Under the pieces are notes generated by a model. That model made no database searches. It was not told the origin of the DNA and saw only the letters and a list, made by a program, of their open reading frames with translations. Positions 5,682 through 32,165 of a stretch of DNA of 32,457 nucleotides are shown here, one piece after another. This stretch comes from Gemmatimonadota bacterium (GTDB lineage Bacteria > Gemmatimonadota > Gemmatimonadetes > Gemmatimonadales > JACORV01). The position numbers and the translations under genes are program-made. Location: positions 1 through 32,457 of the forward strand of contig JACORV010000005.1 of assembly GCA_016179225.1 (NCBI GenBank). Reading direction: 5' to 3'. How positions within the stretch are numbered: the first letter of the stretch is position 1; every line of letters begins with the position of its first letter.

Positions 5682-6655
5682 CGCGGCTGCGCGAGGCGCT
5701 CTCCCCGCGCGAGGCCGCTCACGACTTCGATCCGACCGTCCCTCAGCCGGGCGCCCAGGGTCACGGCGCGCAGCGCCGTGCGACCGTCCTCCCAAACCAG
5801 GACGTAGCCCGAGTCGGCCACGGCGGCCGCCGGGATCGCGATCACCTGCCGCCGCTCTCCCCCGAGACTCACCGTGACGCTGGCCCCCGGCCGCATGCGC
5901 GCGCCCGGCGCCAGCTCGAGGATGAACTCACGCGTACCGCTGGCGGCGTCCACGTTGGGGGAGGCGCGGATCACGGTGGCTCGCGCGCCGGCCCCGTCCA
6001 GGCCCGCCGCGTAGGCGCTCGAGCCGACGCCGATCCCGCGCGCGGCGCCCTCGGGCACATGCACCGCCACCCGCAGCGGCGCGAGCGCCGTCACCCGGAA
6101 GAGCGAGTCGCCCGGCGCGACGAGCCTGGCCGGCCGGATCGTCTTCGCCGAGACCGCGCCGGCGAAGGGCGCCGTGACGCGTGTCAGCTCGAGGTTGCGC
6201 CGCGCCTGCTGCCGCCCCAGCTCGGCACGGCGGAATTCCAGCTCGGCGCGCTCCGAGTCCGCCACGGCGACCAGACGCGACTGCGCGAGCGAGCGCTGGC
6301 GCTCCAGCTCGCGCCGCGCGTTCTCGTAGGCCACTTCGGCCTGCTGCGCGGCGATCAACTGGTCGGCCTTCTCGAGCTGGGCGAGGAGATCGCCGGCTCG
6401 CACCTCCGAGCCGAGGTCCACGTAGAGCGACTCCACGACCCCGGTCGTGCGCGCGTACACCCAGGTGTCGTGCTCCACGTAAAGCTGCGCCGGTAGACTG
6501 AGCGGCACGGCGACCGTCGCGGTGTCCGCCGTGTAGAGGACCTGCTGCGCCGTCTGCTGCCCCGCCGCCGACTCGGCGCTGCTCCCGCAGCCCGAGAGGG
6601 CCAGCATGGGTAGTGCCAGCAAGAGGTAGGGCGCCCGGCTTTGAACCGTCTTCAC
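5678..6655 (-). CDS. HlyD/RND-type periplasmic adaptor lipoprotein
   Basis: About 325 residues from a GTG at 6655 that overlaps the upstream stop as GTGA. The N-terminus has a lipoprotein signal with lipobox LALSGC (Cys about 23), followed by a low-complexity linker. The body matches membrane-fusion proteins: a barrel-sandwich first half (YARTTGVVESLYVDLGSEV), a long coiled coil (QAEVAYENARRELERQRSL onward), the second half (LELTRVTAPFAGAVSAK), a beta-barrel and a membrane-proximal domain. Such adaptors join an inner-membrane pump to an outer-membrane channel, yet no pump or TolC-like gene lies next to it. Its neighbours also carry HlyD-like parts, so the three may assemble together. The stop overlaps the next start as ATGA. 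Confidence 0.88.
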   Translation of the reverse strand: MKTVQSRAPYLLLALPMLALSGCGSSAESAAGQQTAQQVLYTADTATVAVPLSLPAQLYVEHDTWVYARTTGVVESLYVDLGSEVRAGDLLAQLEKADQLIAAQQAEVAYENARRELERQRSLAQSRLVAVADSERAELEFRRAELGRQQARRNLELTRVTAPFAGAVSAKTIRPARLVAPGDSLFRVTALAPLRVAVHVPEGAARGIGVGSSAYAAGLDGAGARATVIRASPNVDAASGTREFILELAPGARMRPGASVTVSLGGERRQVIAIPAAAVADSGYVLVWEDGRTALRAVTLGARLRDGRIEVVSGLARGERLAQPR

Positions 6656-8592: not shown

Positions 8593-8663
8593 TGCGGCCA
8601 AAAGGCTCGCAAAAGCCGGGGGTGTCAAGATGGCGAGGGGGAGCGATCGGGAAAACATCAAGA

Positions 8664-17488: not shown

Positions 17489-19999
17489 TCACCGCGGATT
17501 CAATATCCGATCGATCCTCGCCCTCAAGTCCTCAAAGTGTGCCCGCGTCGTGCGTTCCCTGGTGCGGACCAGCGCTGTGCGCAGCCCGGCATCGAGATCG
17601 CGCAACTCGGCGCGGGCCAGGGCCTGCGCGTCCGCCGGAGGGCGGGCCGGCGGCGGGATGACCACGCCGGGCGGCAGGCCGGGCGGCGGGCCGGGTGGCG
17701 GCGGGGGTGTAATGACCCGCTCCAGCCCTTCGACGAAGGCTCGCTGAAGGTTGCGGCGGTAGCTGTCCACGACCGGCCGCGCGGTCGCTGCCTCGCCGAA
17801 GATCCCGCGCCGGAGGTCGCCGAAGAGGTCGGCGATCGCGTAGGCTGTGCCCGGCGGCATCGTCGCCTGCTGCTCGACGAGCCGTCCGAGACGTCCGCCG
17901 TCCCACAGCGTGGTGAGCAGCGCCGCTTGGCGTGCGCGGATCCGCTCGACGCTCCCTGTTGGCTCGATACGCCGCAGCACCGCGGTATCGAGGAAGTACG
18001 TCGGCGTCGTGAAGGCGTTCTCCAGCAGGAACCGCACCGCCGCCTCTTGCCGCTCGCGCGGCACCGGTCGATGGATGACGCCGTCCTGGTTGGGGTACTT
18101 CTCGTGGCGGTACACGCCGCCCACGACCGCGGCCACGTGGCCCATCTCGCGCGCCCACTGGCCGATGAGCTCGCCGTACATGGTGTTGAGCTCGGTGTAG
18201 TCGCGCAGGCGGTCGGTCGTCGTGGCCGGGAGCAGCATCGGCACGAGTCGCCGGAGGTTGGCGAGGCCGTAGCGCGTCGCCTTCACCGGGTCGTCGCCGA
18301 GCGCCTCCGTGGTCGTGCGCGGATCAATGCCGTCGGGATTGCCGAAGCGCAGCTCGGACCGCGCGTCCTGGAGCCGGGCCAGGGAGTCGAGGATCGGCCG
18401 CTCCGCCTCCGGCGAACCAGCGCCCGGGAAGCGGCGGTAGCCCCAGTTGATGACGTAGTAATCCCACACGCCGATCTTGGGCTGCAGCTGCACGTCGTCC
18501 CCCGGCTGGGCGACGTAGTTGTTGCGCGCGTAGTCCATGATCGAGTACGACGTGCCGTGCCGGCGCGTGTACGTCGGGCTGCGCAGCGAGTCCACGGGGT
18601 AGTAGCCCGAGGACAACTGGTTGTGCGGCAGCCCGAGCGTGTGGCCGACCTCGTGCGCCGCGACGTAGGCGATCAACTCGCCCATCAAGTCGTCGGGGAG
18701 CGGCAGGCGCTGGGCCCGCCGGTCCACGGCGCCCGCCTGCGTCCAGTACCACGACTGCAGCAGCGAGCTGATGTTGTGGAACCAGCCGATGTTGGACTGC
18801 AGGATCTCGCCGGTCCGCGGGTCATTGACGTGCGGGCCGTACGCGTTCTCGATCGTGGAAGGCAGCCAGCGGATCGTCGAGTACCGCATGTCGTCCAGGT
18901 CGAACTCCGGGTCCTGCGCCGGTGTGGGGGCGCGGCGTGCGGCGATGGCGTTGCTGAAGCCCGCCGCCCGGAAGACCGGCTCCCACATCTCGACGCCACG
19001 GATCAGCCACGGCACCCACTGCTCCGGCGTCGCCGGATCGATGTAGAAGACGATCGGCCGGACCGGGTCCGAGACGGCGGCGCTGGAGTCCCGTGGCTCG
19101 AGCCGCCAACGCGTGAGGTAGCAGCGCCGAGGCACCCGCGCCTCGTCGCTTCCGTAGTCCTCGAAGCTCACCGAGAAGAACCCGACCCGGTTGTCACACA
19201 GCCGCGCCATCATCGGGTGCTCGGGCAGGAGGAGCATCGAGTAGTTCATCAGCATGGTGAGCGAGTTCACCGACCGGTCGTAACCCCGACCGAGGGGCAG
19301 TGGAACCGAGTCCACCTCGAACGTCTGGAGGGCGCTCACCTCGACATTGCGTGGGAAGCTGCGCGCTCGCTCGATGACCGAGCGGGCGGAGTCCAGCCGC
19401 CGCACCCGCACGCCGTTCTGCCGGACGTTCAGCTCGGCGACATCCGTCGTGAATAGTCGCGTCACCTCGACGACCGCGTTGCTGTCGTCCGGGCTCCAGG
19501 CGGCGACGTCGAAGCTCATGATGATCGGCGCCTGGTTGGACAGGTTGACGGCGCGGCTCACCGGCAGGTTGGAGTCGGCGCGCATGGCGTACGACACCAG
19601 CCGGAGGAGCACGCGGTTGCCGATTCGCTCCCAGCGAACGACCCGCGCCGAGACCTGCTCGCCCGCATAGCCGACGCCGCGGACGGTGCCCCGCTGGTCG
19701 GCCACCAGCCGGAACTCGCGAGAGAACAGGCTCCGCGGAATCTCGTAGAACAGCTTCTCGCCGATCCGGTGGATGATGAAGACGCCGGAGTCGGTCACGG
19801 CCTGCGCGGTGATGACGTCACGGTAGGGTTTGGGACCCTCCGGCTGCTGCGGGCGGGCGCCTGGCGCTTGGCCTTGCGCCTGCGCGCCCGGTTGCTGGGG
19901 CGTTGGGGATTGGGGTGTGGGGTTTCGGGGGTTTTGGGCCGCGATGCCCGTGGCGGCGGCAAGCGACACGAGGGTGGTCACCAGGAGGCGTCTCAGCAT
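17489..19999 (-). CDS. Secreted zinc-dependent metalloprotease (HEVGHxxGLPHN; DUF5117/DUF4953-like)
   Basis: About 836 residues from ATG 19999 (MLRRLLVTTLVSLAAATGIAA), a clear signal peptide followed by a Pro/Gln-rich linker. The N-terminal part (about 60-320) is beta-rich and matches the DUF5117-type domain. The catalytic site HEVGHTLGLPHN lies at about 449-460, an extended HExxHxxGxxH zinc site, with SIMDYARNNYVAQPGDDV downstream supplying the Met-turn region. The C-terminal part includes a Pro-rich loop of P and G. Proteins like this are common in Bacteroidetes and Gemmatimonadetes-like genomes and are presumed extracellular or periplasmic peptidases. The gene is convergent with the ABC permease gene. 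Codons about 21-34 overlap a G-quadruplex-like run on the opposite strand. Confidence 0.9.
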   Translation of the reverse strand: MLRRLLVTTLVSLAAATGIAAQNPRNPTPQSPTPQQPGAQAQGQAPGARPQQPEGPKPYRDVITAQAVTDSGVFIIHRIGEKLFYEIPRSLFSREFRLVADQRGTVRGVGYAGEQVSARVVRWERIGNRVLLRLVSYAMRADSNLPVSRAVNLSNQAPIIMSFDVAAWSPDDSNAVVEVTRLFTTDVAELNVRQNGVRVRRLDSARSVIERARSFPRNVEVSALQTFEVDSVPLPLGRGYDRSVNSLTMLMNYSMLLLPEHPMMARLCDNRVGFFSVSFEDYGSDEARVPRRCYLTRWRLEPRDSSAAVSDPVRPIVFYIDPATPEQWVPWLIRGVEMWEPVFRAAGFSNAIAARRAPTPAQDPEFDLDDMRYSTIRWLPSTIENAYGPHVNDPRTGEILQSNIGWFHNISSLLQSWYWTQAGAVDRRAQRLPLPDDLMGELIAYVAAHEVGHTLGLPHNQLSSGYYPVDSLRSPTYTRRHGTSYSIMDYARNNYVAQPGDDVQLQPKIGVWDYYVINWGYRRFPGAGSPEAERPILDSLARLQDARSELRFGNPDGIDPRTTTEALGDDPVKATRYGLANLRRLVPMLLPATTTDRLRDYTELNTMYGELIGQWAREMGHVAAVVGGVYRHEKYPNQDGVIHRPVPRERQEAAVRFLLENAFTTPTYFLDTAVLRRIEPTGSVERIRARQAALLTTLWDGGRLGRLVEQQATMPPGTAYAIADLFGDLRRGIFGEAATARPVVDSYRRNLQRAFVEGLERVITPPPPPGPPPGLPPGVVIPPPARPPADAQALARAELRDLDAGLRTALVRTRERTTRAHFEDLRARIDRILNPR
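19897..19938 (+). other. G-quadruplex-like motif with six G-runs
   Basis: The plus strand has G-runs of 4, 4, 4, 4, 5 and 3 at 19897, 19905, 19912, 19919, 19927 and 19936, separated by 3-4 bases. The consensus unit is TGGGGNN, partly a tandem heptamer. It lies on the template strand of the metalloprotease gene, just after the signal-peptide codons. Confidence 0.7.
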
Positions 20000-20033
20000 G
20001 ACTTGGACTCTTTGGAAAGGTGGACGGTACGAG

Positions 20034-20492
20034 TTACGGACGAGGGGCAAGTTTTGTTGCAGCGCCGCACTCCACGCAAAACCTGCCGCTGCCCTCGAGC
20101 CCGCTGCCGCACTCGATGCAGTACTTGCGGCCATTCGACTTCGAGGACTCCCTAGCGGAGGCGATGAGGGCCTCGACGGTGTCCGCGGCGCTGGCCGGCG
20201 GTCCGGCGGTCAGGCGGTCAGGGAAAGCGGCATCGGCCGCGCGGAGCGCCTCCAGCGCTTCCGTCGTGTACTTCGCGCGCAACCGCTCGTAGTCCTCGTC
20301 CGACAGCTTGCCCGTGGCGCGGTCGAACTCGATCTCCTTGAGCGCGGCCAGGGCGGTGTCGCGGCGCGCGAGCGTGGCGTCGTCATCGAAGGCGGCCAGG
20401 CGGTCAGGCGCCCAGACGGCCGGTCGGAGGACCGGCTCCAGCACGACGAAGACAGCCGCGAGGGCGATGATCAGTCCGGCCAGGACGAGCAC
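20034..20492 (-). CDS. CcmI-like cytochrome c biogenesis protein with a zinc ribbon
   Basis: 152 residues from GTG 20492, one base after the ccmH stop. An N-terminal TM (LVLAGLIIALAAVFVVL) is followed by the CcmI-type segment TALAALKEIEFDRATGKLSD and EDYERLRAKYTTEALEAL. The C-terminus is a zinc ribbon, YCIECGSGL and FCVECGA (two CxxC pairs), which CcmI proteins usually lack. CcmI presents apocytochrome to the haem ligase; here the TPR part is absent and replaced by the ribbon. It is the last gene of the ccm run. Confidence 0.82.
   Translation of the reverse strand: MLVLAGLIIALAAVFVVLEPVLRPAVWAPDRLAAFDDDATLARRDTALAALKEIEFDRATGKLSDEDYERLRAKYTTEALEALRAADAAFPDRLTAGPPASAADTVEALIASARESSKSNGRKYCIECGSGLEGSGRFCVECGAATKLAPRP
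20197..20220 (+). repeat. Tandem octamer GGCGGTC(C/A), three units, inside the ccmI-like gene
   Basis: GGCGGTCC, GGCGGTCA and GGCGGTCA lie head to tail within coding sequence and encode D-R-L-T-A-G-P-P on the minus strand. Three units are 24 bases, so the frame is kept. Confidence 0.85.
20391..20414 (+). repeat. Degenerate octamer repeat GGCGGCCA/GGCGGTCA/GGCGCCCA
   Basis: Three 8-base units of the same family as 20197-20220 lie in the 5' part of the ccmI-like gene and encode part of the segment after the membrane anchor. Confidence 0.55.
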
Positions 20493-20493
20493 G

Positions 20494-21156
20494 CTACGCC
20501 TCGAACCGCTCGAGCTCGCGCTTCAGGCGCTCGAGCTCCTGGCCGGCGACGCCCACGCCGGGCGGCGGCGTCTCCACTTCGATCAGGGTCGCGGGCCGGG
20601 CGCGGATCCACCGCCGCATCACCAGGCCCACGATCGCGATCCCCACGCCGAGCCCCACGAACGGCATGATGTAGGCCGCCCAGTTGAAGCCGCGCTTGGG
20701 CGGTGCCATCAGGACCGCCTGCCCATACTGCGCCTCGAACGCCGCCACGATCTGCTGCGGCGTCATCGCGGAGTCGAGCCTGGCGAGCACCTGGCGGTGC
20801 ATCGCCGGCGAGGTCGCGCAGCTGAAGTCGGTGGTGCGGCAGGTGAACACGTCGAGGTTGCAGCCGCAGGTGCAGCGGAGCTTTCCTTCGATCGCCTTGA
20901 CCAGGGCGTCGTTGTCGCGGGCGGTGACCGGCGCTCGGGACTGGACCATGTTCGGCGCGTACAGGCGGCCCAGGCTGTCGGTCGAGGACGGGGCGGTCAG
21001 GCGGGCAGGCGGTCGGGCGGTCGGCGATTGGGAGACGCCGCTCGGCGTCGCCGCGTCCGCGCGCTCGCGCGCCTGCGCGTCAGCGCGTCCACCGAGCGCC
21101 AACGCCAGCACCGCCGCGCGTACGGCTGTACCGCCGTACCACCGTACCGCCCTCAC
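20494..21156 (-). CDS. ccmH: CcmH, cytochrome c maturation thiol-disulfide subunit (CxCGC variant)
   Basis: 220 residues from a GTG overlapping the ccmF stop as GTGA. A signal-like segment (AVRAAVLALALGGRADAQA) precedes a low-complexity linker that contains an octamer repeat. The redox domain reads KLRCTCGCNLDVFTC (Cys about 95, 97, 99 and 106, with a fifth Cys at about 113) instead of the usual LRCxxC. A TM (AYIMPFVGLGVGIAIVGLVM) and a charged tail follow. CcmH reduces apocytochrome cysteines and works with CcmF in haem attachment on the outer face of the membrane. The Cys pattern is a variant form that I have not matched by search. Confidence 0.9.
   Translation of the reverse strand: MRAVRWYGGTAVRAAVLALALGGRADAQARERADAATPSGVSQSPTARPPARLTAPSSTDSLGRLYAPNMVQSRAPVTARDNDALVKAIEGKLRCTCGCNLDVFTCRTTDFSCATSPAMHRQVLARLDSAMTPQQIVAAFEAQYGQAVLMAPPKRGFNWAAYIMPFVGLGVGIAIVGLVMRRWIRARPATLIEVETPPPGVGVAGQELERLKRELERFEA
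20992..21023 (+). repeat. Tandem octamer GGCGGTC(A/G), four units, inside ccmH
   Basis: GGCGGTCA, GGCGGGCA, GGCGGTCG and GGCGGTCG lie in the linker after the CcmH signal segment and encode P-T-A-R-P-P-A-R-L-T-A. Confidence 0.85.
21120..21151 (+). repeat. Tandem octamer GTACCGCC, four units, at the ccmH 5' end
   Basis: GTACGGCT, GTACCGCC, GTACCACC and GTACCGCC cover the first codons of ccmH. On the minus strand the unit is GGCGGTAC, close to the GGCGGTCA octamer found in the other orientation nearby. Confidence 0.85.
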
Positions 21157-23177
21157 GTCGTCACCTGCGCGACGTACCCGGCCGGCGCGGCGCGGCGGCG
21201 GCTCGCCGCGGTGGGAGCGTCACCCGGCCACATCGTGATGAGCCCGCCGATCACCAGCACCACGCCGCCGTACCAGACCCACCAGACGAGCGGGTTCAGC
21301 GTGATGCGGTAGACCGCCTCCTCCGTCCCCTGTACCGATCCGGCGTACACCAGATAGACGTCCTCGCGCAGATCGCTCCGGATCGCGACCTCCGTCGAGG
21401 GCTCGAAGGTCGGCCGGCCCATCGAGTCCATGTGCTGGCGCTTCTCGCTCTTCATGACGCCGAGGTACTTCTCGTCGCGCCAGACGTCCATGCTCGCCGC
21501 GGAGACGAACCGGTTCAGCTGCTCGTACTGCGAGACGCCCTGGTGGGTGAAGCGGTAGGCGTGCCCGTACGGGGAGCGCACGGTCACGCTCTCGCCCGGC
21601 TTGAGCGTCGCCTCGGTGTCGCTCTTGAAGGCGAGCCCCGCGAACCCGGCGAACAGCATCACCATCCCGAGGTGCACGACGTAGCCGCCATAGCGCCGCC
21701 GGTTGCGGGCGATGAGCCGGCCGAGCGCGACCGGGATCGACTCGCCGTGGAGCCGGTGCCGGGCGCCCGTGCCGCGCACGAACTCCTGCGCCACCGTCGT
21801 CGTCACGAACGCCGCGAGCGCGTAGGCCGCGATCGCCCATCCATCGGAAATGCGGGCCGCCGCCAGCGCGACCGCCGTGAGCAGCATCGCGGCGACCGGC
21901 CAGCGAAACTGGCGCTTGAGGTTTCCGGGCGACGCGCGGCGCCAGGCGATGAGCGGCCCGATCCCAGTGAGGAGGAGGAGCAGGAGGCCCAGCGGCACGT
22001 TCACCTGATTGAAGAACGGCGGCCCCACAGTGACCTTCGTCCCCTTCACCCACTCGGAGAGGATCGGGAAGAGCGTCCCCCACAGCACCGAGAAGGCGAT
22101 GACGATGAAGATGAGATTGTTGAAGAGGAACGCCGCTTCGCGGCTCACCATGGACTCCAGCTTCGCCTCGGCCTCGAGCTCCGGCCAGCGATAGTAGAGG
22201 AGGCTGAAGCCCGCCACCGCCGCGAAGAGGAGGAAGGCGAGGAAGAAGTACCCGACGCTCGACTGGGTGAAGCTGTGCACGCTGGAGATCACGCCGCTGC
22301 GCGTGATGAAGGTGCCGAAGATCGAGAGTAGGAACGAGCCCACGACGAGGCCGACGTTCCACCGCTTCAGCATCCCGCGCTTCTCCTGGATCATCACCGA
22401 GTGAAGGAACGCGGTCATCGTGAGCCACGGCAGGAACGACGCGTTCTCCACCGGGTCCCACGCCCAGTACCCGCCCCACCCCAGCTCGACGTACGCCCAC
22501 CACATCCCGAGGACGATGCCGCACGAGAGGAAGAGCCACGAGAGCAGCGTCCACCGGCGGATGGCGTGCAGCCAGCCGGTGTCGAGCCGGCCCGAGAGCA
22601 GCGCGGCCACGGCAAACGCGAAGGGGATGGTGATGCTGGTGTAGCCGAGATAGAGCATCGGCGGGTGGATCGTCATCCCCGGGTTCTGGAGCTGCGGGTT
22701 GAGGCCGCGCCCGTCGGGTGGCGTGAAGCCGAGCCGCTCGAAGGGGTTCGAGGCGAAGAGCATCACCGCCACGAAAAAGGTGACGACGACGAGCACCACG
22801 CCCGCCACGTAAGGCATCAGCTCCCGGTACCTGCCGCGGTTGGCGAGCAGCGCGGCCGAGCCGAAGGTCGCGACCACGATCGCCCAGAGGAGGAGCGACC
22901 CCTTCTGCCCCGCGTAGAAGGCCGACCAGGTGTAGTAGACGGGCAGGTTGCGGCTCGTGTACGAGGCGACGTACTCGACGTTGAAGTCGTGGGTGAGCAG
23001 CGCCCGCATCAGCCCCACCGAGGCGATGACGAGCAGCCCCCACGTCACGTACACCGCGCGCTCGGCCGAGAGGGCGAGCTCGGCGCGGCCGGTCCGTCCG
23101 CCGACGAAAGCGACCGCGCTCCCCCAACAGCCGATGAGGAGCGCGACCCAGAGGGCGATGTTGCCGAGGTCGGTCAT
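21153..23177 (-). CDS. ccmF: CcmF, cytochrome c haem ligase subunit
   Basis: 674 residues from ATG 23177 (MTDLGNIALWVALLIGCWGS). It is a large polytopic membrane protein with the WWD motif GGYWAWDPVENASFLPWL and conserved His residues in PGMTIHPPMLYLGY and in the HSFTQS and YVVHLG regions. CcmF with CcmH transfers haem from CcmE to the CxxCH sites of apocytochromes. It lies between ccmE and ccmH in one orientation and overlaps ccmH. A tandem octamer repeat fills the gap towards ccmE. The nine haem sites encoded just upstream would be its substrates. Confidence 0.96.
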   Translation of the reverse strand: MTDLGNIALWVALLIGCWGSAVAFVGGRTGRAELALSAERAVYVTWGLLVIASVGLMRALLTHDFNVEYVASYTSRNLPVYYTWSAFYAGQKGSLLLWAIVVATFGSAALLANRGRYRELMPYVAGVVLVVVTFFVAVMLFASNPFERLGFTPPDGRGLNPQLQNPGMTIHPPMLYLGYTSITIPFAFAVAALLSGRLDTGWLHAIRRWTLLSWLFLSCGIVLGMWWAYVELGWGGYWAWDPVENASFLPWLTMTAFLHSVMIQEKRGMLKRWNVGLVVGSFLLSIFGTFITRSGVISSVHSFTQSSVGYFFLAFLLFAAVAGFSLLYYRWPELEAEAKLESMVSREAAFLFNNLIFIVIAFSVLWGTLFPILSEWVKGTKVTVGPPFFNQVNVPLGLLLLLLTGIGPLIAWRRASPGNLKRQFRWPVAAMLLTAVALAAARISDGWAIAAYALAAFVTTTVAQEFVRGTGARHRLHGESIPVALGRLIARNRRRYGGYVVHLGMVMLFAGFAGLAFKSDTEATLKPGESVTVRSPYGHAYRFTHQGVSQYEQLNRFVSAASMDVWRDEKYLGVMKSEKRQHMDSMGRPTFEPSTEVAIRSDLREDVYLVYAGSVQGTEEAVYRITLNPLVWWVWYGGVVLVIGGLITMWPGDAPTAASRRRAAPAGYVAQVTT

Positions 23178-23218: not shown

Positions 23219-23638
23219 TCACACGCGCGGGCCGCCCTGCGTGGGCGAGGCCTCGTAGCGCGAGCCGCACTTGGCGAGCAGCGTCGTCGCGCGGAAGGTG
23301 CCATCGGGTTGCAGCCGGCCCTCGACGACTACGTCCACCTCATCCGTGAACGTGTCCGGCGCGAGACCGCGGTAGACGACCGGATAGCTCTGCACGCCGT
23401 CGGTCACGCGGAAGGTGATGGTCTGCGAGGCGACGTCGCGCTGGATGGACCCCTTCACGACGCGTGCGCCCATCTTCATGCCGACATCATAGAAGGAATG
23501 GTCGGTACGGACCTTCGCGGCCAGCTCCGAGGGCGTGAGGTAGTAAACGCCCGTCTCCTTGATGCCGGACGCCATGAGGTAGCCGACGGTGGCGAGTATG
23601 AGACCGCCGCCGATCAGGAACTTGGTCTGAGCCTTCAT
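23219..23638 (-). CDS. ccmE: CcmE, haem chaperone of the CxxxY type
   Basis: 139 residues from ATG 23638 (MKAQTKFLIGGGLILATVGY), an N-terminal anchor followed by an OB-fold domain: GVYYLTPSELAAK, VVKGSI, VVYRGLAPDTF and DVVVEGRLQPDGTFRATTLL. The haem-binding motif is AKCGSRYEA, that is Cys124-x3-Tyr128, where classic CcmE has His (HxxxY). Cys-type CcmE is known from Desulfovibrio and archaea. CcmE carries haem to CcmF. The first gene of the ccm set in this orientation; ccmA, B, C and D are not in the window. Confidence 0.94.
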   Translation of the reverse strand: MKAQTKFLIGGGLILATVGYLMASGIKETGVYYLTPSELAAKVRTDHSFYDVGMKMGARVVKGSIQRDVASQTITFRVTDGVQSYPVVYRGLAPDTFTDEVDVVVEGRLQPDGTFRATTLLAKCGSRYEASPTQGGPRV

Positions 23639-23711
23639 GATAGGTTCACCCAGGTCCAAAGATATCCGACCGCTGGTATCCGCAAAAGTAATACCGCGTT
23701 ATGGATGTTGG

Positions 23712-23795: not shown

Positions 23796-25016
23796 TCAGC
23801 GACGGGGGATCGCGCGCCGAGCCGGCGCTGTGGAGCGGGCAAGGCTGCGGAGAAAAACCGAGAGGTCCCGCATCTCGTCTCCCTCGAACCGCGGCCACTC
23901 TACGGTGCGAGTACGCATCACCTCGTACATCGCGGGAGCGTGGTTCCACATCGCGGCGGCCAGGCGCATAGGCGCCGTCACGGCCTCCGACCGCGAGAGG
24001 TCCGGACCGATGGCCGCGCCGGTGTCCGGCCGGTGGCAGCCGGCGCAGCCTTTCGCGCGGAAGACCTGCACGCCCGCCGCGCTGTCGCCGCGGGTCTCGT
24101 CGAACCGCAAGTAGTAGAGGAAGGCGATGACGTCGGCCATTTCGGTTCCGCCGAAGCGTGGAAAGGCGAACCCGCGTTCCCGCATCCGCGCGGACATCTC
24201 AAACGAGTGGTTCCAAAGCACGCCTGCGATTTCGGAGACACGCATCCGGACGGTCGCCGCCCGGAGGTCGGGACCATAGGGCGTGCCGCGACCCGTGTCG
24301 CCATGGCAGCGGAGGCAGCCTTTGGTCCTGAACAGCTGCCTGCCGCGCTCCGGGTGGGGGGGCTCGAGGAAGACCGCCCTGCGTGGCGCCTCTCGGGAAA
24401 CCTCGCGAACGTAGGCCTGAATGTCGGCCATCTCCCGCCCTACGAAGGTTGGCGTCGCTACGCCGCGCATCCGCTGGGTCGCCTGCATGGCCGGGCCGTG
24501 GTTCCACATCCCTTCGGCGAGCATGATGGGCGCCACGTAGCGGGCGTAGCGGTCGAGCGGCGGGCCCACCCGGCCGCCGCTCCCGCCGACACTGTGACAG
24601 AGCATGCACTGCTTCTCCCGGAACCATCGTTCGCCCAGGTCGGGGTCGCCCGGCTCGTCGAACAGCTTGACGTAATAGAGGTAGCCGATGACGTCGCTCA
24701 ACTCGGTCTCGGTGAGCCTGGGCCACTCGAAGCCGCTGCGCCGCATGGTCTCCATCATCCGCGGCGTGTGGTTCCAGAACAGTCCCGCAAGCTGCTGCAT
24801 GCTGCGACCGGCGCCGACCGTGGCGAAGTCCGGGCCGAGTCGGCCGCCGTTGCCCCAAATCGCGTGGCAGCGGACGCATCCCTTGTCGTGAAAGACTCGC
24901 CGTCCGGCGCTCGGGTCGCCGCCCGGCAACGAAGGACCAGCTTGCGCTGAGCCCGACGAGGCCAGCACCAGCGCCAGGCCGACAACAGCGCACGCTCGGC
25001 CCGTGGACTTCGACAT
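23796..25016 (-). CDS. Tetrahaem c-type cytochrome built from four similar monohaem domains
   Basis: 406 residues from ATG 25016, which overlaps the NrfD stop as TGATG. A signal peptide (VVGLALVLASSGSAQA) is followed by four repeats of about 90-100 residues. Each starts with a haem motif (CVRCH, CMLCH, CLRCH, CAGCH), then a G-rich GPD/GPP strand, then a W-N-H-x3-M motif (WNHTPRM, WNHGPAM, WNHSFEM, WNHAPAM) and an acidic helix such as MADVIAFLYYLRF. The Met or His of WNHxxxM is a likely distal haem ligand. It is the last gene of the molybdoenzyme operon and is probably the periplasmic electron carrier or a subunit of the complex. The open frame continues upstream through the NrfD gene, but that part is not its own. 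Confidence 0.9.
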   Translation of the reverse strand: MSKSTGRACAVVGLALVLASSGSAQAGPSLPGGDPSAGRRVFHDKGCVRCHAIWGNGGRLGPDFATVGAGRSMQQLAGLFWNHTPRMMETMRRSGFEWPRLTETELSDVIGYLYYVKLFDEPGDPDLGERWFREKQCMLCHSVGGSGGRVGPPLDRYARYVAPIMLAEGMWNHGPAMQATQRMRGVATPTFVGREMADIQAYVREVSREAPRRAVFLEPPHPERGRQLFRTKGCLRCHGDTGRGTPYGPDLRAATVRMRVSEIAGVLWNHSFEMSARMRERGFAFPRFGGTEMADVIAFLYYLRFDETRGDSAAGVQVFRAKGCAGCHRPDTGAAIGPDLSRSEAVTAPMRLAAAMWNHAPAMYEVMRTRTVEWPRFEGDEMRDLSVFLRSLARSTAPARRAIPRR

Positions 25017-26374
25017 CAGTCCGCCGCCACCGGTTCCGGCGGCAAGTACCCGGCCACCCGCTCGGCCACCTCGCGCACCGACGCTTCCCTCCCCTCGCGC
25101 ATCTCCCAGATGGAAATGATCGGGAAGAATTTCGTGGCCACCATGTAAAGGAGGATGAAGCCGGCGAAGGTGCCGGCGAGGATCGACAGCTCGACCCACG
25201 ACGGGAGATAGTGGCCGAGCGACTCGAACTCGAAGCGCGGGTTCACCGACGTCGGGACCACGATGTTGAACCGCTCCAGCCACATCCCGATCACCACCGC
25301 CACGCCGGCAACGAGCGTTCCACCCGGGGTCCGCGTCGCACGCCGGCACATTAGCGCGAGGGGGATCACGAAACAGCACGTCACCATCGTCCAGAACGGC
25401 GCTGCGAAGGGCCCCCGGACCTTGGCCCAGAAGGTGCGCATTTCCGCCGGCTCGGCACCGTAGAACGCCGTCAGGTACTCGGCGAACGTGAAGTAGAACC
25501 ACAGTAGGCTGAACAGCAGCAGCAGCCGGCCCATGTAGTCGAAGTGGACCGCCCGGAAGTACTCGTGGAAGCCGTAGGCCCGCCGGAGCACGACCATCGC
25601 GATCAGGATGGCCGCGATACCCGAGTAGATCGCGCCCATCACGAAGTAGGGGCCGAAAATGGTCGAGTGCCACATCGGACGCAGCGTCATCGCGAAGATC
25701 CAGCCGATCACCGTGTGCACCGACACGGCGATCGGAATCACGACGATGGCCAGCACGCCGATCACTCGCTCGAGGCGCGCTCGCTGCGCCGGCGTGTCGC
25801 GGTAGCCCGCCGCCAGGAACCGGTAGAACCGAGGCGCCTTGATCCCCGCGTCCCGAATGATGGCGAGATCGGGCAGCATAGGCAGGTAGAGGTAGATCGT
25901 GCTGGCGCCGAAGTAGAGGCCGATGCTGATGACGTCCCACAGCAGCGGAGACCTCAGCTGGGCGTGCAGGAACACGTTCAGCAGCCGGTCGGGACGGCCC
26001 AGGTCGATGATCGGCTGGATCGCCCCGAACCCGAGCACGAGTACTGTGATGAACTCGGCCGAGCGGGTGATTGAGCGGCGCCATTCGGCCTTGCTGATGC
26101 GCAAGATCGCCGAGATCAGGGTGCCCGCGTGGCTGATGCCGATGAAGAACACGAAGTCGATGATGTAGATGCCCCAGTACTCCGGTTGGTTGAGGCCGGT
26201 GCGGCCCAGCCCGAACCGGAGCTGGAGGTAGTAGGCCGTGAGGCCCCACAGCGCGATCGCCCCGAGGACGGTCGCGGCTGCGCGGAACCGCCAAGTCGTC
26301 TCGACCAGCGGAGCCAGCAGCTTCCGCGCATCGTCGGGCAGCGCCCGCAGCTTCAGCCGCGCGTCGTCGGTCAC
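25016..26374 (-). CDS. NrfD/PsrC-type quinone-interacting membrane subunit
   Basis: 452 residues from GTG 26374, two bases after the Fe-S subunit stop. About ten membrane segments are seen, for example YWGIYIIDFVFFIGISHAGT, LIAMVVLRRAYGFHEYF and FAGFILLYMVATKFFPIISI. The NrfD-family landmarks GISHAGTLISAILRI and AVSVHTVIGWIFAMTLRPMW are present. Proteins of this type (PsrC, QrcD, ActC) exchange electrons with menaquinone or ubiquinone and pass them to or from the periplasmic Fe-S subunit. The close sequence style to ActC/QrcD suggests a quinol:acceptor complex rather than nitrite reductase. Confidence 0.92.
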   Translation of the reverse strand: MTDDARLKLRALPDDARKLLAPLVETTWRFRAAATVLGAIALWGLTAYYLQLRFGLGRTGLNQPEYWGIYIIDFVFFIGISHAGTLISAILRISKAEWRRSITRSAEFITVLVLGFGAIQPIIDLGRPDRLLNVFLHAQLRSPLLWDVISIGLYFGASTIYLYLPMLPDLAIIRDAGIKAPRFYRFLAAGYRDTPAQRARLERVIGVLAIVVIPIAVSVHTVIGWIFAMTLRPMWHSTIFGPYFVMGAIYSGIAAILIAMVVLRRAYGFHEYFRAVHFDYMGRLLLLFSLLWFYFTFAEYLTAFYGAEPAEMRTFWAKVRGPFAAPFWTMVTCCFVIPLALMCRRATRTPGGTLVAGVAVVIGMWLERFNIVVPTSVNPRFEFESLGHYLPSWVELSILAGTFAGFILLYMVATKFFPIISIWEMREGREASVREVAERVAGYLPPEPVAAD

Positions 26375-26375
26375 C

Positions 26376-27059
26376 TCACGTCCTCGGTGTCAGGTAGTAG
26401 ACCTTCGGCTCGGTGCCGAGGTCCTCCATCAGGCGCATGGCCCGCGGATCGTGCCGCAGCTCCGACACGCGGTGCCGCGGGTTGTCGAGGTCGCCGAACA
26501 CGATGGCCCGGGTCGGGCAGGCTTCCGCACACGCCGGCTGATAGTCGGACTCCCGCAGCTCGCGTCCCTCGGCGCGCGCCTCCTCGCGAGCCTTCTGCAG
26601 GCGGTGGTGGCAGAAGGTGCACTTCTCGATGACCCCCTTGGGCCGCACCGAGACGTCAGGGTTGAGGTGCGCGCGCTCCGACTCGGGCCAGGTTGGCGCG
26701 TACCAGTTGAAGTACTTCACCGTGTACGGACACGCGTTCGCGCAGTAGCGGCACCCGATGCAGCGCGGGTAGATCTGGCCCACGATCCCCTCGGGGCTGA
26801 TATACGTCGCCTCTACGGGGCAGACCTTGACGCACGGTGGGTTGTCGCAGTGCATGCAGGGCCGCGGCGCGAACCGCAGCGTGTTGTTCGGGAACTCGCC
26901 CTCCACCTCGGCCATTACCCGCATCCAACTGATCGTCCTGCCGAGTGCTGCCTGCTCCGGCGCGACAGTGGCGATGTTGTTCTCGCTCTTGCACGCCACC
27001 TCGCACGCCGCGCAGCCGGTGCAGCGATCCAGGTCGATGACCATCCCCCAGCGCGGCAC
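26376..27059 (-). CDS. 4Fe-4S dicluster-type ferredoxin subunit with four cluster motifs
   Basis: About 227 residues from GTG 27059 (VPRWGMVIDLDRCTGC), preceded by GAGG 9 bases upstream; the open frame extends to 27104, overlapping the upstream gene, and ATG 27044 is another option. Cysteine groups are CTGCAACEVAC, CMHCDNPPCVKVCP, CIGCRYCANACP and CTFCHH...CAEACP, enough for four [4Fe-4S] clusters. This is the PsrB/QrcC/TtrB-type electron-transfer subunit that bridges molybdenum protein and NrfD subunit. There is no signal peptide; it would be exported with the Tat-targeted catalytic subunit. Confidence 0.93.
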   Translation of the reverse strand: MPRWGMVIDLDRCTGCAACEVACKSENNIATVAPEQAALGRTISWMRVMAEVEGEFPNNTLRFAPRPCMHCDNPPCVKVCPVEATYISPEGIVGQIYPRCIGCRYCANACPYTVKYFNWYAPTWPESERAHLNPDVSVRPKGVIEKCTFCHHRLQKAREEARAEGRELRESDYQPACAEACPTRAIVFGDLDNPRHRVSELRHDPRAMRLMEDLGTEPKVYYLTPRT

Positions 27060-27070
27060 CTGGGCGGTCC

Positions 27071-29446
27071 TCAGGCGCGCTCCAGGCGCACGAACGTCGT
27101 GCACCAGGATGCGAGGTCGGTGAGCGGATCCGTCGCGCCGTCCAGAAGCTGGAGCGGGTTCGCCAGCGTGCCGTCAGGGTGCCGGAGCCCGTAGGGCGCA
27201 TTCACCACGTCGCGCGCGGCTCCGGCGAAGTGCTTCATCTGTGCGAGGTACCGGCCGCGAATCGAGACCACCCACACCATGGCGCCGTCGCCGAGCCCCA
27301 GCTCGCGCGCGGTCATCGGGTGCACCTCGACCCACGGTATCCAGTGGACCTCGGGGAACGTCGTGGGCCGCTCCGCGAGCCACGGTGCGAGCCCGACGGT
27401 GCCGGAGGCCAGGGTAGACATCCGGTACGGGTTCAGGCGGAGCGGGAAGGCGTCCGCAGTGCGGTCATCGTCGGTCCGGAACCGATACGGGTCTCTGGCC
27501 TCCGCGCCGTCGGCTTGCCGCCGCAACTGCTGCGGAATGAGCTCGATCCTGTCGCCTGCCGTGCGCGCCAGACGGGTCGGGTCGGTATGGTCATAGAACG
27601 GATCGACCCACCCACCACGCTCGACCAGGGCGGTCCAGAACGCCTCGAAATCCGGCGCCGAGGCCAGCCACCAACCGCGCTCCTGCATCTGCTGCTGGTG
27701 CTCGGTCTCGAACTCGTCACCGAACGGCATACCGCGACGCGCGTCGTAGAGGCCACGCGCCCGCGCCTTGAGGAGCGCCTCGAAATCGACGTACGGCAGA
27801 CTGGCCCCCACCGTTCCTCCCAGCCGAGCCGCCAGCGCGAGGATCAGGTCGCCCGTGCTGCGGCCGCCGCCCGGCGATGTCACCAGCGGCCGCGCGATGC
27901 CCCAAACCGGATAGGGGTAGGACGCGGGGGCGGGCCCGTCCTGCCATCGCTCCGCTGGCAGGAGATCCGGGATGACGAGGTCCGCCTGGCTCGTCGTCTC
28001 GTCGAGAAACGGTGAGAAGCTCACCACCAGGGGGACGCGGGACAGCGCAGCAGTCCACGTCGCCCCGTCGGAGGACGAGGCCAGCGGATTCGCGTAGTAG
28101 AGAAGAAGCACCTCCACGGGCGAGGCTTGGGTCGCCGCGATCTCCTCCGCGAGCCGGCGAGCGTTGGGCGCTCCGAGCGGCGCCGGCAGCGCGACGGGGC
28201 TTCGCGCCAGCCCACGCCGCGTCATGGCGTCGAGCGCCGCGGGCGGAAGGGCCGCCAGCGGAGGTTCGTCGCGGAAGAGCACGCCGCCGGGCCGGTTGAT
28301 GTTGCCCGTGAGGACATTGAGGCTGTGGACGGCCATGCCTGCCGGCAGACCGTCCGGAGCCTGTGTCACGTCGGCGCCGCAGACGGCGACGGCAGGACCA
28401 CGGTCGGCGACCATCTTCGCGAGGCCTACGATGCGCTCGATCGGCACGCCAGTCGCGGCCGAGACCTCCTCCGTGCGATAGTGCCGGAGGACGAGGGACC
28501 GGTAGCCTGGCTGGAGCGTGCCCCGGTCGTCCAGCCAGTCATCGAAACCCGCCACGTGCCGCGCCAGGAAGTCCGCATCGATCCGCTCCTCTTTGATGAG
28601 CACGTAGGCGATGCCCAGGGCGAGGATGGCGTGCGTGCGCGGCCTGACAGCCACCCACTCGTGGGCGCGAGCGGCGGTGCGCGAGAACCGGGTGTCGACC
28701 TGAATGAAGCGCGGATGCCGCTCCCGCTCCTCGCCCGGCCGGCCGAAGGCCACGTACGCCTGGAGCGGTGACCACCACGCCTCGAAGAGGGGCGCGCCGA
28801 ACGAGAGCACCAGCCCGGCGCGCTCGAGGTCGTAGCTGGGCCGCTGCGGGATACCGTGCATGGCAGCCATGATGGCGTCGGTTCCGTCCGGGTAGGCGTC
28901 GGCCACGTAGTTCGGCGAGCCGAAGGCGCGCAGGAACTGGCGCCACACGGCGTCCATGGATCCCGCGCAGTAGCCCGCGAGCACCGCGAGCGCCTCCGGC
29001 CGACCGGCAGCCCGCAGCTGCTGAAGGCGATCGGCGAGGAACGTCAACGCGCCGTTGGGTGTGAGCGAACGCCAGCGCCCCGCGCCGCGAGCACCGACGC
29101 GCAGCAGCGGCGTGCGCAGGCGCTCGGGATGGTAGAGCGTCTGCACGGCCGCGGCGCCACGGGGACAGATTCCGCCTCGGCTCAGCGGGTGCAGCTGGTT
29201 GCCACCGATGCCGACGAGACGACCGTCCACCGCGCGCCCCCTGATCCCACAGCGAGAGGGGCAGACGAGACACGTCGAGTTCAAGCGCTCCTCGAGGCCC
29301 GGCGCCCACCCGGGGCCGGCCGCCTCGTCCGCCGGCCACCGCACATCGCACGACTCGGCCAGCGCGAGGCCGGCCAAGCCCCCGCCGAGCGTCAGGATGA
29401 ACCGCCGGCGGCCGAGATGCCCCGGCTCGTGCGCTAGCGGTGGCAT
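27071..29446 (-). CDS. Tat-exported molybdopterin oxidoreductase catalytic subunit (Psr/Qrc-like)
   Basis: 791 residues from ATG 29446. A twin-arginine signal (GRRRFILTLGGGLAGLALAESC) is followed by a complete [4Fe-4S] site, CLVCPSRC with a fourth Cys 27 residues later in GGICPRG. Molybdopterin-fold landmarks include DAYPDGTDAIMAAMHGIP, FIQVDTRFSRTAARAHEWV, LNVLTGNINRPGGVLF and a C-terminal barrel (HPMTARELGLGDGAMVWV). ActB and QrcB relatives can lack molybdenum; here the Cys ligands of the cluster are all present. The expected active-site ligand position is not clear to me, so the substrate (polysulfide, tetrathionate, arsenic species or quinol:cytochrome electron flow) remains open. It overlaps the cytochrome gene by 13 bases. 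Confidence 0.92.
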   Translation of the reverse strand: MPPLAHEPGHLGRRRFILTLGGGLAGLALAESCDVRWPADEAAGPGWAPGLEERLNSTCLVCPSRCGIRGRAVDGRLVGIGGNQLHPLSRGGICPRGAAAVQTLYHPERLRTPLLRVGARGAGRWRSLTPNGALTFLADRLQQLRAAGRPEALAVLAGYCAGSMDAVWRQFLRAFGSPNYVADAYPDGTDAIMAAMHGIPQRPSYDLERAGLVLSFGAPLFEAWWSPLQAYVAFGRPGEERERHPRFIQVDTRFSRTAARAHEWVAVRPRTHAILALGIAYVLIKEERIDADFLARHVAGFDDWLDDRGTLQPGYRSLVLRHYRTEEVSAATGVPIERIVGLAKMVADRGPAVAVCGADVTQAPDGLPAGMAVHSLNVLTGNINRPGGVLFRDEPPLAALPPAALDAMTRRGLARSPVALPAPLGAPNARRLAEEIAATQASPVEVLLLYYANPLASSSDGATWTAALSRVPLVVSFSPFLDETTSQADLVIPDLLPAERWQDGPAPASYPYPVWGIARPLVTSPGGGRSTGDLILALAARLGGTVGASLPYVDFEALLKARARGLYDARRGMPFGDEFETEHQQQMQERGWWLASAPDFEAFWTALVERGGWVDPFYDHTDPTRLARTAGDRIELIPQQLRRQADGAEARDPYRFRTDDDRTADAFPLRLNPYRMSTLASGTVGLAPWLAERPTTFPEVHWIPWVEVHPMTARELGLGDGAMVWVVSIRGRYLAQMKHFAGAARDVVNAPYGLRHPDGTLANPLQLLDGATDPLTDLASWCTTFVRLERA

Positions 29447-29985
29447 GCGATGCAGTCCCGGGTTTGGCCGCTACGCCGATGGCAGTCGAGACAGAACCCC
29501 ATCCGAATTTTCACGAGCGGCCGCGCTGGTGGGCGCGTCGTGAGCGCGATGTTCCCATGGCAGTTACGGCATTCCAGGCGCCCGATGCCTACGTGCCGCC
29601 GGTGCGTGTAGAAGACGTGCGGCGGGAGGCGGAACAGCTTCTCGAAGGTCAGCGGGCGGCCTTGCGCGACCAGTTCCGTGACACGCGCTGCCTCGCGCGT
29701 CGTGCCCTGCGTGGCCTGATGGCACATCGCGCAAGTCTCGAGCGACGGCAGCCCGGGATGAGCGCCAGTCCGCACGTAGGAATGGCACAGCTCGCAGTCG
29801 AGCTGGAGATCCTGGGTGTGCTTCCGGTGGTTGAAGGCGATCGGCTGGGCGACGCCGGGGCCTTGGGCGACGGCCACGATGGCGCCGGAAACGACGAGAA
29901 GCGCCGCAGCGACGATGCCGAACTCGCCTGGTCGCGCCCGAACTTGGGCCACCCGCCGTCTGAGCCACGCCACACGCATCCCCAT
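29434..29985 (-). CDS. Membrane-anchored pentahaem c-type cytochrome (QrcA/ActA-like)
   Basis: 183 residues from ATG 29985, with GAGGGG 9 bases upstream. An N-terminal TM (FGIVAAALLVVSGAIVAVA) is followed by five haem motifs, CELCH, CAMCH, CRNCH, CLDCH and CIACH, and by extra His residues typical of bis-His c7/c3 cytochromes (FNHRKHTQDL, FYTHRRHVGI). It is the first gene of the operon. In alternative complex III (ActA) and Qrc (QrcA) a five- or six-haem cytochrome in this position links the NrfD/Fe-S core to periplasmic carriers. The haem count is seen directly; the role is by family comparison. Confidence 0.92.
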   Translation of the reverse strand: MGMRVAWLRRRVAQVRARPGEFGIVAAALLVVSGAIVAVAQGPGVAQPIAFNHRKHTQDLQLDCELCHSYVRTGAHPGLPSLETCAMCHQATQGTTREAARVTELVAQGRPLTFEKLFRLPPHVFYTHRRHVGIGRLECRNCHGNIALTTRPPARPLVKIRMGFCLDCHRRSGQTRDCIACHR

Positions 29986-30206: not shown

Positions 30207-32165
30207 GTGAAATGCCCCGAAGCGCGTCGGCTCGCCGAGTCGGCCGGCAGACTGGCGTGGCACTTGCTGCTCCACAAGCGCGAGACTCTTTGGGCAGGTA
30301 CGGTGCCGGGTCAGCTGGCAACGTGGCGGACGCTGTGGCGTGAGAACCCCCTGCGCAGTGCGCTGGGCAAGAAGCTTCTCGCGTGGCTGCTCCTGCTCTC
30401 GCTCGTCCCGCTGTTCGTCTCCAACACCATCGGCTACCTCGCAAGCGGTCGCATCATCAACGGGCTCGCCGAACGGGACCTGCAGGCGCTCACCGCCGTC
30501 CAGGCGCATCACGTGCGCGACGAGATCGAGCGGTTGCTGCTGGGGCTCGTCTCGGCCGCGCGAGCGGATCGCCTGCTGGTGGCGAGCGCCGCCGCGCTCC
30601 GCGACTCCTCCGCGAGCCCGGTGGTTCTGAGCGGCGCCAGCGGCCTGGCGGCCGAGGAGCTCCAGCGCCTGCGCGAGCAGCTCGGCACGTTCGGCGAACT
30701 GCTGCTCGTCGGTCCGAGCGGTACCGTGGTCGCGTCCTCGCCGCGATTCGCGTCCGGGGTGCACTGGCGGGATGCGGGGCTGGTGGCGCATGCGGCGACC
30801 GAGGGGCGGACGTTCGCGATAGGAAGCGCGAGTGCAACCGCGGCGCCACCGCTGCTCTTTGCTGCAGCCCTCCCCGGCCCCGATGCCACAGGGCCAGCCA
30901 TCATCGTCGGTACCGTCGCCGCAGCCGATGTCGGCACCGCGCTCCAGATCCCGCGTCTGTTGGCCGGCGTGATCGAGGCGTACATCGTGGACGACGTTGG
31001 CCGCCCGGTGTTCGTCTCGCGTCCGCGCGGGCCGATCGACTATCAGCAACCGCTGCCGCTCTATCGCGCCCTCGCTGAGGGGGCCCGGCGCTACCGCGGG
31101 GACGAGGCGGGTGAGGTGGTGGCCAGCAGCCACGCGGTGCCCGGCTATGCGCTGCGTTTCATAAGCGAGGTTCCCGTCCGTGCAGCGCTCGGCGAGCTGC
31201 GCTGGCTGCGCCGGCTGTCCGTGATCCTCGAGGCGACGTTCGTGTTGGTGCTCATCGGGGCGGCGTGGATCGTCTCGCGCGGCATCCTGCGGCCGGTGAG
31301 CCAGCTGGTGGCTGCAGCCGAGCGCATCGGCCAGGGCGACCTCGAGGCGCGGGTCGCCGTGCACCAGCGGGACGAGGTGGGACAACTGGCGGAGCGCTTC
31401 AACGACATGGCGAGGCAGCTGCACGAGTCGGCGGTGCGGATTCGCAACCTGCACGACGAACAGATGCGGCGCGCCGAGCAGTTGGCCACCGTCGGGGAGC
31501 TGGCGGCGGGGATCGCCCACGAGCTCAAGACCCCGCTGCTCGGCGTCGCGAGCGGCGCCCAACTGCTCAGCCGACGGCTCGAGCCGTCCGACGCGGAGGG
31601 CCGCCGCCTCGCGGGCGAGATGCTCCAGCGCATCCGGCGCATGGAGGAGGCGATGCAGGCGCTGCTCAGCTACGCGCGTCCCTCCCCAACCCGGCTCTCG
31701 CGGCTCGACCTGAATGCGATCGTCGAGCGCGCGTTGCGGCTCGTGGAGCCGCGGGCCGACCGCTCCAGCGTGGCGATAACCCGGCGGCTGGCTCCCACTT
31801 TGCCGAGCGTGCAGATGGACCCGGATCAGATCGGGCAGGTGATCGTGAATCTGGTGCTCAACGGAATCGAGGCGATGGCTGAGGGCGGGTGCCTCGAGGT
31901 CGAGACCAGAGTGGCCGACGGGACCGTGGAGCTGTGGGTGAGCGACTCGGGGCCCGGAATCGCGTCGGCGGAGCGCGAGCGCATCTTCCGCCCGTTCTAC
32001 ACCACGAAACACACGGGAACCGGCCTCGGTCTCGCGATTGTGCGGCAGATCGTGGAACGGCACGGCGGGCTGGTTTTCGTGATCGACCGGCCGGAGGGTG
32101 GGACGCGCTTCGTGGTCGCGCTTCCGCTGGACCGGCAGCCTGGACTCGGCGGAGGCAAGGGATGA
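30207..32165 (+). CDS. Membrane sensor histidine kinase (HAMP-HisKA-HATPase)
   Basis: 652 residues from GTG 30207; later starts such as GTG 30303 are possible and would trim the odd N-terminus (MKCPEARRLAESAG). TM1 is at about 57-80, an extracytoplasmic sensor region at 81-335, TM2 at about 338-358 and HAMP at 360-412. The HisKA box is AAGIAHELKTPLLG (His438), the N box NLVLNGIEAMAEGG, and the G boxes DSGPGI and GTGLGLAIV. It phosphorylates a partner regulator, encoded next with an ATGA overlap. Divergence from the respiratory operon, with a shared 221-base gap, suggests that it senses an electron acceptor or redox state, but the ligand is unknown. Confidence 0.93.
   Translation: MKCPEARRLAESAGRLAWHLLLHKRETLWAGTVPGQLATWRTLWRENPLRSALGKKLLAWLLLLSLVPLFVSNTIGYLASGRIINGLAERDLQALTAVQAHHVRDEIERLLLGLVSAARADRLLVASAAALRDSSASPVVLSGASGLAAEELQRLREQLGTFGELLLVGPSGTVVASSPRFASGVHWRDAGLVAHAATEGRTFAIGSASATAAPPLLFAAALPGPDATGPAIIVGTVAAADVGTALQIPRLLAGVIEAYIVDDVGRPVFVSRPRGPIDYQQPLPLYRALAEGARRYRGDEAGEVVASSHAVPGYALRFISEVPVRAALGELRWLRRLSVILEATFVLVLIGAAWIVSRGILRPVSQLVAAAERIGQGDLEARVAVHQRDEVGQLAERFNDMARQLHESAVRIRNLHDEQMRRAEQLATVGELAAGIAHELKTPLLGVASGAQLLSRRLEPSDAEGRRLAGEMLQRIRRMEEAMQALLSYARPSPTRLSRLDLNAIVERALRLVEPRADRSSVAITRRLAPTLPSVQMDPDQIGQVIVNLVLNGIEAMAEGGCLEVETRVADGTVELWVSDSGPGIASAERERIFRPFYTTKHTGTGLGLAIVRQIVERHGGLVFVIDRPEGGTRFVVALPLDRQPGLGGGKG

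Follow-up and report, generated by a model that had tools for sequence, protein, structure and literature searches.

A tetrahaem cytochrome of four CxxCH...WNHxxxM modules at the end of an ACIII-like gene row in a Gemmatimonadota bacterium: a candidate electron outlet with a putative distal Met on a helix

The window analysed here, a stretch of 32,457 nucleotides (positions 1 to 32,457 of contig JACORV010000005.1) from a Gemmatimonadota bacterium, contains an operon-like row of five genes that lie on the same strand and overlap or abut one another. They encode a pentahaem cytochrome, a molybdopterin-family subunit, an iron-sulfur protein, an ActC-like NrfD protein and, in last position, a tetrahaem cytochrome that we call TH4 (Table 1). 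The ATG of TH4 at 25016 overlaps the stop codon of the NrfD gene by one base (TGATG). An open frame of 832 aa (23796-26294) extends TH4 without a frame change across the NrfD gene; its portion upstream of the TH4 ATG is taken to be a shadow frame. Judged by eye, TH4 plausibly begins with a signal peptide. The row is followed by Ccm genes and preceded by a divergent sensor kinase; past the kinase, a frame starting at 32164 that resembles a response regulator by eye runs off the contig. Elsewhere in the window, a large Met-zincin gene (DUF4953/DUF5117; 17489-20134, minus strand) lies downstream of the Ccm genes, and a frame at 6652-8661 (minus strand) unites GAF domains with a HlyD/CusB-type barrel-sandwich domain, which is an unusual combination.

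Table 1. Genes of the TH4 row, neighbouring genes, and haem-binding and WNHxxxM motifs of TH4 (positions in the window)
Feature	Positions	Strand	Evidence or remark
CcmH	20494..21156	minus	Pfam CcmH 57 bits
CcmF haem lyase	21153..23177	minus	same neighbour in G001
CcmE haem chaperone	23219..23659	minus	starts 137 bp downstream of TH4; Pfam CcmE 98 bits; same neighbour in G001
TH4 tetrahaem class I cytochrome, 406 aa	23796..25016	minus	Pfam Cytochrom_C 99.8 bits over whole protein
WNHAPAM, domain 4 (W357-M363)	23928..23948	minus	within model helix 349-370
CxxCH, domain 4 (C324-H328)	24033..24047	minus	
WNHSFEM, domain 3 (W268-M274)	24195..24215	minus	within helix 260-281 of full model
CxxCH, domain 3 (C234-H238)	24303..24317	minus	
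WNHGPAM, domain 2 (W171-M177)	24486..24506	minus	within model helix 164-184
CxxCH, domain 2 (C137-H141)	24594..24608	minus	
WNHTPRM, domain 1 (W81-M87)	24756..24776	minus	within model helix 73-94
CxxCH, domain 1 (C47-H51)	24864..24878	minus	
NrfD, ActC-like membrane subunit	25016..26374	minus	Pfam NrfD 120 bits; R. marinus ActC chain 6f0k_C E 4e-66
Iron-sulfur subunit, ActB2/QrcC-like	26376..27104	minus	6f0k_B residues 797-1023 E 1e-62; NCBIfam QrcC 316.7 bits, cut-off 400
Molybdopterin-family subunit, QrcB/ActB1-like by context	27071..29446	minus	NCBIfam QrcB 264 bits, cut-off 440
Pentahaem cytochrome, ActA/QrcA-like, 5 CxxCH	29434..29985	minus	8k9e_A E 1e-22; 6btm_A (ACIII subunit A) E 3e-20
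HAMP sensor histidine kinase, divergent	30207..32165	plus	

An earlier note on this DNA had read the gene as a cytochrome with four CxxCH...WNHxxxM modules, and the translation bears this out: the product carries four CxxCH, each of which is followed by a WNHxxxM whose Trp lies 34, 34, 34 and 33 residues after the first Cys in units 1 to 4. Only 13 of 100,000 shuffles of the protein contained at least one WNHxxxM, so that four such motifs at a fixed spacing are not due to chance.

Each unit of TH4 is predicted to adopt a class I cytochrome c fold. The protein matches the Pfam families Cytochrom_C and Cytochrome_CBB3, and an AlphaFold2 model of the whole chain, built on an alignment of 73 sequences, reached a pLDDT of 89.5 and a pTM of 0.83. 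In this model the motif lies inside a helix of 21-22 residues in every unit; in a model of domain 3 alone (pLDDT 90.6) a break at the motif His divides it into 41-50 and 52-62. Compared by VIA-align, domain 3 is most similar to NorC (4xyd_B, Z 8.6 over 88 residues, 3.1 Angstrom), followed by the caa3 cytochrome domain 1w2l (Z 8.2), SoxX (Z 7.6) and MtoD (Z 7.2), all of them proteins with one class I haem each. Scores near Z 8 can reflect a merely common arrangement, but these matches span the whole domain and agree with the sequence. The full model attained a Z of 7.2 at best, and Foldseek gave no match with E <=0.001 for either the full model or the domain 3 model. Among the five alignments listed for a search of the domain profile against PDB sequences, it was mainly the CxxCH half that aligned, and they do not settle the ligand column. 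As is usual for class I cytochromes c, each unit of TH4 has its CxxCH close to the start of a helical class I fold; the other usual feature, a distal Met at its place on the loop that precedes the C-terminal helix, is not seen. Pfam, the AlphaFold2 models and VIA-align together back the view that this tetrahaem protein is one class I unit used four times.

To find homologues, 84,980 species genomes were scanned for two peptide patterns, of which one was the domain 2 motif. The 72 loci obtained belong to Gemmatimonadota, Rokubacteria, NC10, Ignavibacteria, Acidobacteria, KSB1, Calditrichota, Verrucomicrobia, Lentisphaerae, Nitrospirae, Bacteroidetes, Deltaproteobacteria and others, with weak matches in the final few of these groups. 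TH4 belongs to an old and widespread family, and its four-unit plan is common to many phyla. Its distribution within the phylum is patchy: 17 of 249 genomes possess it, as do 6 of 61 near relatives, the genome of the window included.

The origin of the four units by internal duplication, which the earlier note had likewise supposed, can be stated more exactly as the doubling of a dihaem protein. In a tree of 312 domains, a single edge with a support of 0.909 separates D1+D3 from D2+D4 for 98% of the 300 domains that come from tetrahaem proteins, and the alternative pairings sort 72% at most. This grouping indicates that a dihaem AB unit doubled before the family spread; the event must be old, because the units of one protein share a mean identity of 32-37%. 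Dihaem proteins with motif-like WNHxxxM units occur at two loci (L033:12045-12755 and L053:12756-13427), with similar frames in L039 and L048, and are possible relatives of the ancestral AB unit.

Which residue of the motif binds the haem was left undecided between His and Met in the earlier note, and natural variants favour Met for the first three units. We aligned 75 full-length tetrahaem proteins, equal to 300 units; of the 90 frames in 82 loci, 7 had been left out as exact copies of others, 2 as multihaem frames unrelated to the family and 6 for having fewer than four haems. The motif Met is present in 285 and the motif His in 270 of the 300 units, figures that are inflated, most of all for domain 2, because the domain 2 motif partly served as bait in the homologue search and the frame filter demanded motif-like residues. 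Among the 75 proteins, unit 1 has both residues throughout, unit 2 has His in 72 and Met in 74, unit 3 has His in 49 (Lys in 25, Gln in 1) and Met in 74, and unit 4 has His in 74 and Met in 62; pooled over units 1-3, Met occurs in 223 of 225 units versus 196 of 225 for His. An alignment of 44 domains, a smaller set, shows no variation at CxxCH, at one Gly and at the Trp and Met of the motif (Met 44/44), and the motif His only just exceeds 90%. The His is replaced by K, A, S, N or Q, and by R in the partial loci L007 and L018, with Met retained alongside; some of these residues are not ordinary haem ligands. Because natural variants keep Met more than His, the motif Met is likely to be the distal ligand in units 1-3, and probably in unit 4, of TH4, judged from this conservation. 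The distal Met would then likely have shifted from the usual loop to a helix.

In NorC the distal ligand is located on a loop, and we used its Met112, which we take to be the haem ligand, together with the structural match to 4xyd_B to place the corresponding slot at the residue before the conserved Pro. If the units were ordinary class I domains with a loop ligand and WNHxxxM had a purely structural purpose, as the fold and the Pfam matches would allow, this slot should hold a ligand; Met and His are found there in just one unit each out of 300, however, units 1-4 of TH4 have W, T, F and W, and no His or Met column of the 44 domains reaches 90% besides CxxCH and the motif. Met stands two residues upstream of the slot in 18 of the 300 units, in which a loop Met may therefore still serve, but for the family we regard the loop as very improbable. 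A better, though still rather doubtful, prospect is that coordination is mixed, with some haems, above all that of unit 4, ligated by two His through the motif His and others by His and Met, so that the potential would step along the chain. This idea draws on the K clade, 25 proteins (support 0.991) with WNKxPxM in domain 3. In all of them Lys replaces the His of unit 3 and Met is kept, and in 13 of the 25 the Met of unit 4 is lost and the His kept in all 13, through four inferred changes on the whole tree; no such loss is seen in the 50 proteins outside the clade. A K-clade unit 4 that lacks Met would likely have either His or an open site at its haem, and a five-coordinate unit 4 fits the pattern equally well. 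No unit out of 300 lacks both residues, but this proves nothing, since only about 0.6 double losses are expected by chance, and a mutual exclusion of the two losses, considered as a further argument, was not significant. Unit 4 of the window's own protein retains both His and Met. The choice offered by the earlier note therefore narrows to Met as the likely ligand in units 1-3, and may be reversed where K-clade proteins have lost the Met of unit 4.

The gene row suggests the role of TH4. The best solved relatives of the NrfD, iron-sulfur and pentahaem subunits are ACIII chains (for NrfD 6lod_C, 4e-68, and 6f0k_C, 4e-66), with 6lod and 8k9e taken to be ACIII entries. As in ACIII, an ActA-like pentahaem cytochrome, an iron-sulfur ActB2-like protein and an ActC-like NrfD as quinol subunit are combined with a terminal class I cytochrome. 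In contrast to ACIII, ActB is split, and neither ActD nor a second NrfD (ActF) was found in the row, with one NrfD gene among the ten proteins scanned and Ccm genes coming after TH4. The monohaem ActE is replaced by a protein with four CxxCH and another distal-ligand motif, and the large subunit is nearer to molybdenum enzymes. Of the ActC residues listed for R. marinus in PMC8076601, the NrfD of the window keeps 13 of 13 in the N-side half-channel, 5 of 6 on the P side and 2 of 4 at the quinone site, where ActC His139 corresponds to Asp and Asp253 to Ile. The four-subunit plan is also that of Qrc, and in NCBIfam the three subunits concerned match QrcA, QrcB and QrcC best, all of them below the curated cut-offs (90/180, 264/440 and 317/400 bits). 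The row differs from Qrc by five haems instead of six, by the additional tetrahaem class I subunit, and by a large subunit that keeps a 4-Cys motif, while QrcB is described as devoid of cofactors in PMC13059093.

The same genome has a canonical-looking act cluster on contig C30, composed of a fused ActB-like frame of 1231 codons, an ActC-like NrfD, a frame of 221 codons, one of 202 codons with a single CxxCH, and a membrane frame of 429 codons. The labels ActD, ActE and ActF are our reading of the last three, and the NrfD model missed the 429-codon frame. Since C30 already contains an act cluster, the window adds a second ACIII-like complex to this genome. C145 encodes a COX1 oxidase subunit, and cytochrome b was not found in the genome, which is 72% complete.

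The large subunit of the window begins with a Tat-like RRRF and carries a 4-Cys [4Fe-4S] motif. Among solved structures, the molybdenum enzymes ArrA (7e-39) and thiosulfate reductase (4e-35) come closest to it, and the ACIII chain 8k9e_B lies further off (5e-16). These relatives, the 4-Cys motif, which is kept in all 29 covering relatives, and Asp187, which stands opposite an ArrA Cys that we take to be the Mo ligand, could speak for a true molybdenum enzyme for some substrate, with TH4 as its electron partner. We hold this to be distinctly improbable. At the Mo-ligand position the window and its 7 nearest covered relatives have Asp (8 of 29 overall), but the 29 as a whole vary between D, Q, K, A, R and other residues with no ligand common to all, while they have the remaining operon genes in common; among NCBIfam models, QrcB fits this subunit best; and the 4-Cys motif recurs in the ActB-like protein encoded elsewhere in this genome, and is hence no marker of Mo binding. 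Retention of that motif, once considered a special trait of the window complex, was dropped for the same finding. We lean towards a large subunit that would be without Mo, as in Qrc and ACIII. The Asp-Gly at the Mo-ligand stretch (residue 187) is retained in the window and its 7 nearest covered relatives and not across the wider family, and a Mo site restricted to Gemmatimonadota members is possible from these sequences.

Neighbours were counted in 57 named loci (L011 and above) of 4-17 kb with a full-length TH4, several of which share a genome. At least two of the four ACIII-like subunits are encoded in 26 of the 57, Rieske together with cytochrome b in 24, one or the other of the two sets in 42 and neither in 15; six have an MtrB-type porin according to our own profile. 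Pfam matches bear out these assignments in five cases for Rieske, six for cytochrome b and two for MtrB. The 23 loci of the K clade include 15 with Rieske and cytochrome b and 17 with a nonahaem cytochrome, and this neighbourhood is perhaps that of a bc-type complex with many haems. Nonahaem, Rieske and cytochrome b genes accompany K-clade genes in L033, L045, L046, L048, L050, L058, L061, L062, L065 and others. Upstream of the K-clade tetrahaem genes of L058, L060, L061 and L062 lie frames with 11-19 CxxCH, and the one with 19 (L058) bears a cytochrome b561-like domain. In L020, L022, L054 and L056 a frame of about 90 codons, missing from the window, recurs between the NrfD and tetrahaem genes; in L022 and L054 it has, by eye, a stretch like a membrane helix.

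A possible recipient of the electrons is found next to the operon in a genome of the same genus (G001), whose TH4 is 84% identical. There the flanking kinase is followed by a decahaem MtrA and then by an MtrB/PioB porin (locus L100, G001:C272:7000-22000, at 4512-7802), while the contig of the window stops at 32457, soon after the kinase and short of that point. L011 likewise has MtrA and MtrB genes adjoining the operon, and L040 has them next to its tetrahaem gene. In the window's genus, an MtrAB-type conduit of decahaem cytochrome and porin is a likely partner of TH4, to judge by gene order. Among the 249 genomes of the phylum, 17 have TH4 and 21 have MtrB, with an overlap of 3 versus 1.4 expected, which is not remarkable, and in all three the two genes share a contig. 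Most members must have another partner, given so small an overlap. The nosZ gene is present in 7 of the 17 TH4 genomes and was not found in G000, G001, G003 and G038. Co-occurrence was therefore abandoned as a guide to the acceptor: with MtrB in 3 and nosZ in 7 of the 17, no single acceptor emerges.

From the gene row, the neighbours in the 57 loci and the MtrAB genes of G001, we propose that TH4 would be the periplasmic equivalent of ActE and would let electrons out of a reduced ACIII-like quinol:cytochrome oxidoreductase, perhaps with a connection to the outer membrane. Menaquinol would be oxidised at the NrfD subunit, and the electrons would pass through the iron-sulfur subunit and the pentahaem cytochrome to TH4, which would convey them along the class I haems of its four units to a partner in the periplasm or the outer membrane; for the window's genus, the MtrAB-type conduit whose genes adjoin this operon in G001 is a likely one. 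Each haem would have the His of CxxCH as its fifth ligand; as the sixth, the WNHxxxM Met, placed on a helix rather than on a loop, is the most likely. We infer the assembly of the complex, its potentials and its direction from genes and models, and give the whole path, Met ligation included, slightly better than even chances.

The flow may also run the other way, TH4 accepting electrons from a periplasmic or extracellular donor, e.g. Fe(II) through a conduit of the MtoAB/PioAB type, and the complex reducing menaquinone. The related four-subunit Qrc runs towards quinone, according to PMC13059093. The Qrc models that score best, though below cut-off, for three subunits, the MtrA and MtrB genes at G001, L011 and L040, the class I cytochrome MtoD among the structural matches and the Asp in place of ActC His139 would all be compatible with this direction. 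On the other hand, the best solved relatives of three subunits belong to ACIII, and 24 of the 57 loci combine the gene with Rieske and cytochrome b, which normally oxidise quinol. We consider reversed flow unlikely for these reasons, and prefer TH4 as an outlet.

Cytochromes c3, NrfH/CymA and NapM resemble TH4 in having four haems and a function in periplasmic electron transfer, but have other folds and mainly bis-His ligation. An ActE-like tetrahaem protein has appeared in print in one sentence on the ACIII-like 'cluster 4' of MBNT15 SHF-111, in PMC9386147; this sentence includes no motif, ligand or family analysis. A different NrfD cluster, with actD, ccoP and ccoII, is reported in PMC10732223. 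No description of the WNHxxxM motif or of its family was recognised in a literature search that took in few subscription papers, and a text search for the motif itself gave no hit there. Taken as a whole, the family might be one of class I cytochromes in which the Met moved from loop to helix, an AB unit was doubled to AB-AB, and the product became an exchangeable outlet for both ACIII-like and Rieske/cytochrome b complexes, which are unrelated to each other and oxidise quinol, with a ligand switch in the K clade (Met only in unit 3, His only in unit 4) and a bridge to MtrAB-type conduits; in this full form the picture is tentative, and we would not expect every part of it to hold.

TH4 represents a widespread and little-described electron-transfer protein whose gene accompanies quinol-oxidising complexes of two kinds in Gemmatimonadota, Rokubacteria, NC10, Ignavibacteria, Acidobacteria and others. 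With its natural His-only and Met-only variants, it allows a possible relocation of the distal ligand in class I cytochromes to be put to the test, and it is a candidate link between quinol chemistry at the inner membrane and porin-cytochrome conduits of the outer membrane in uncultured phyla.
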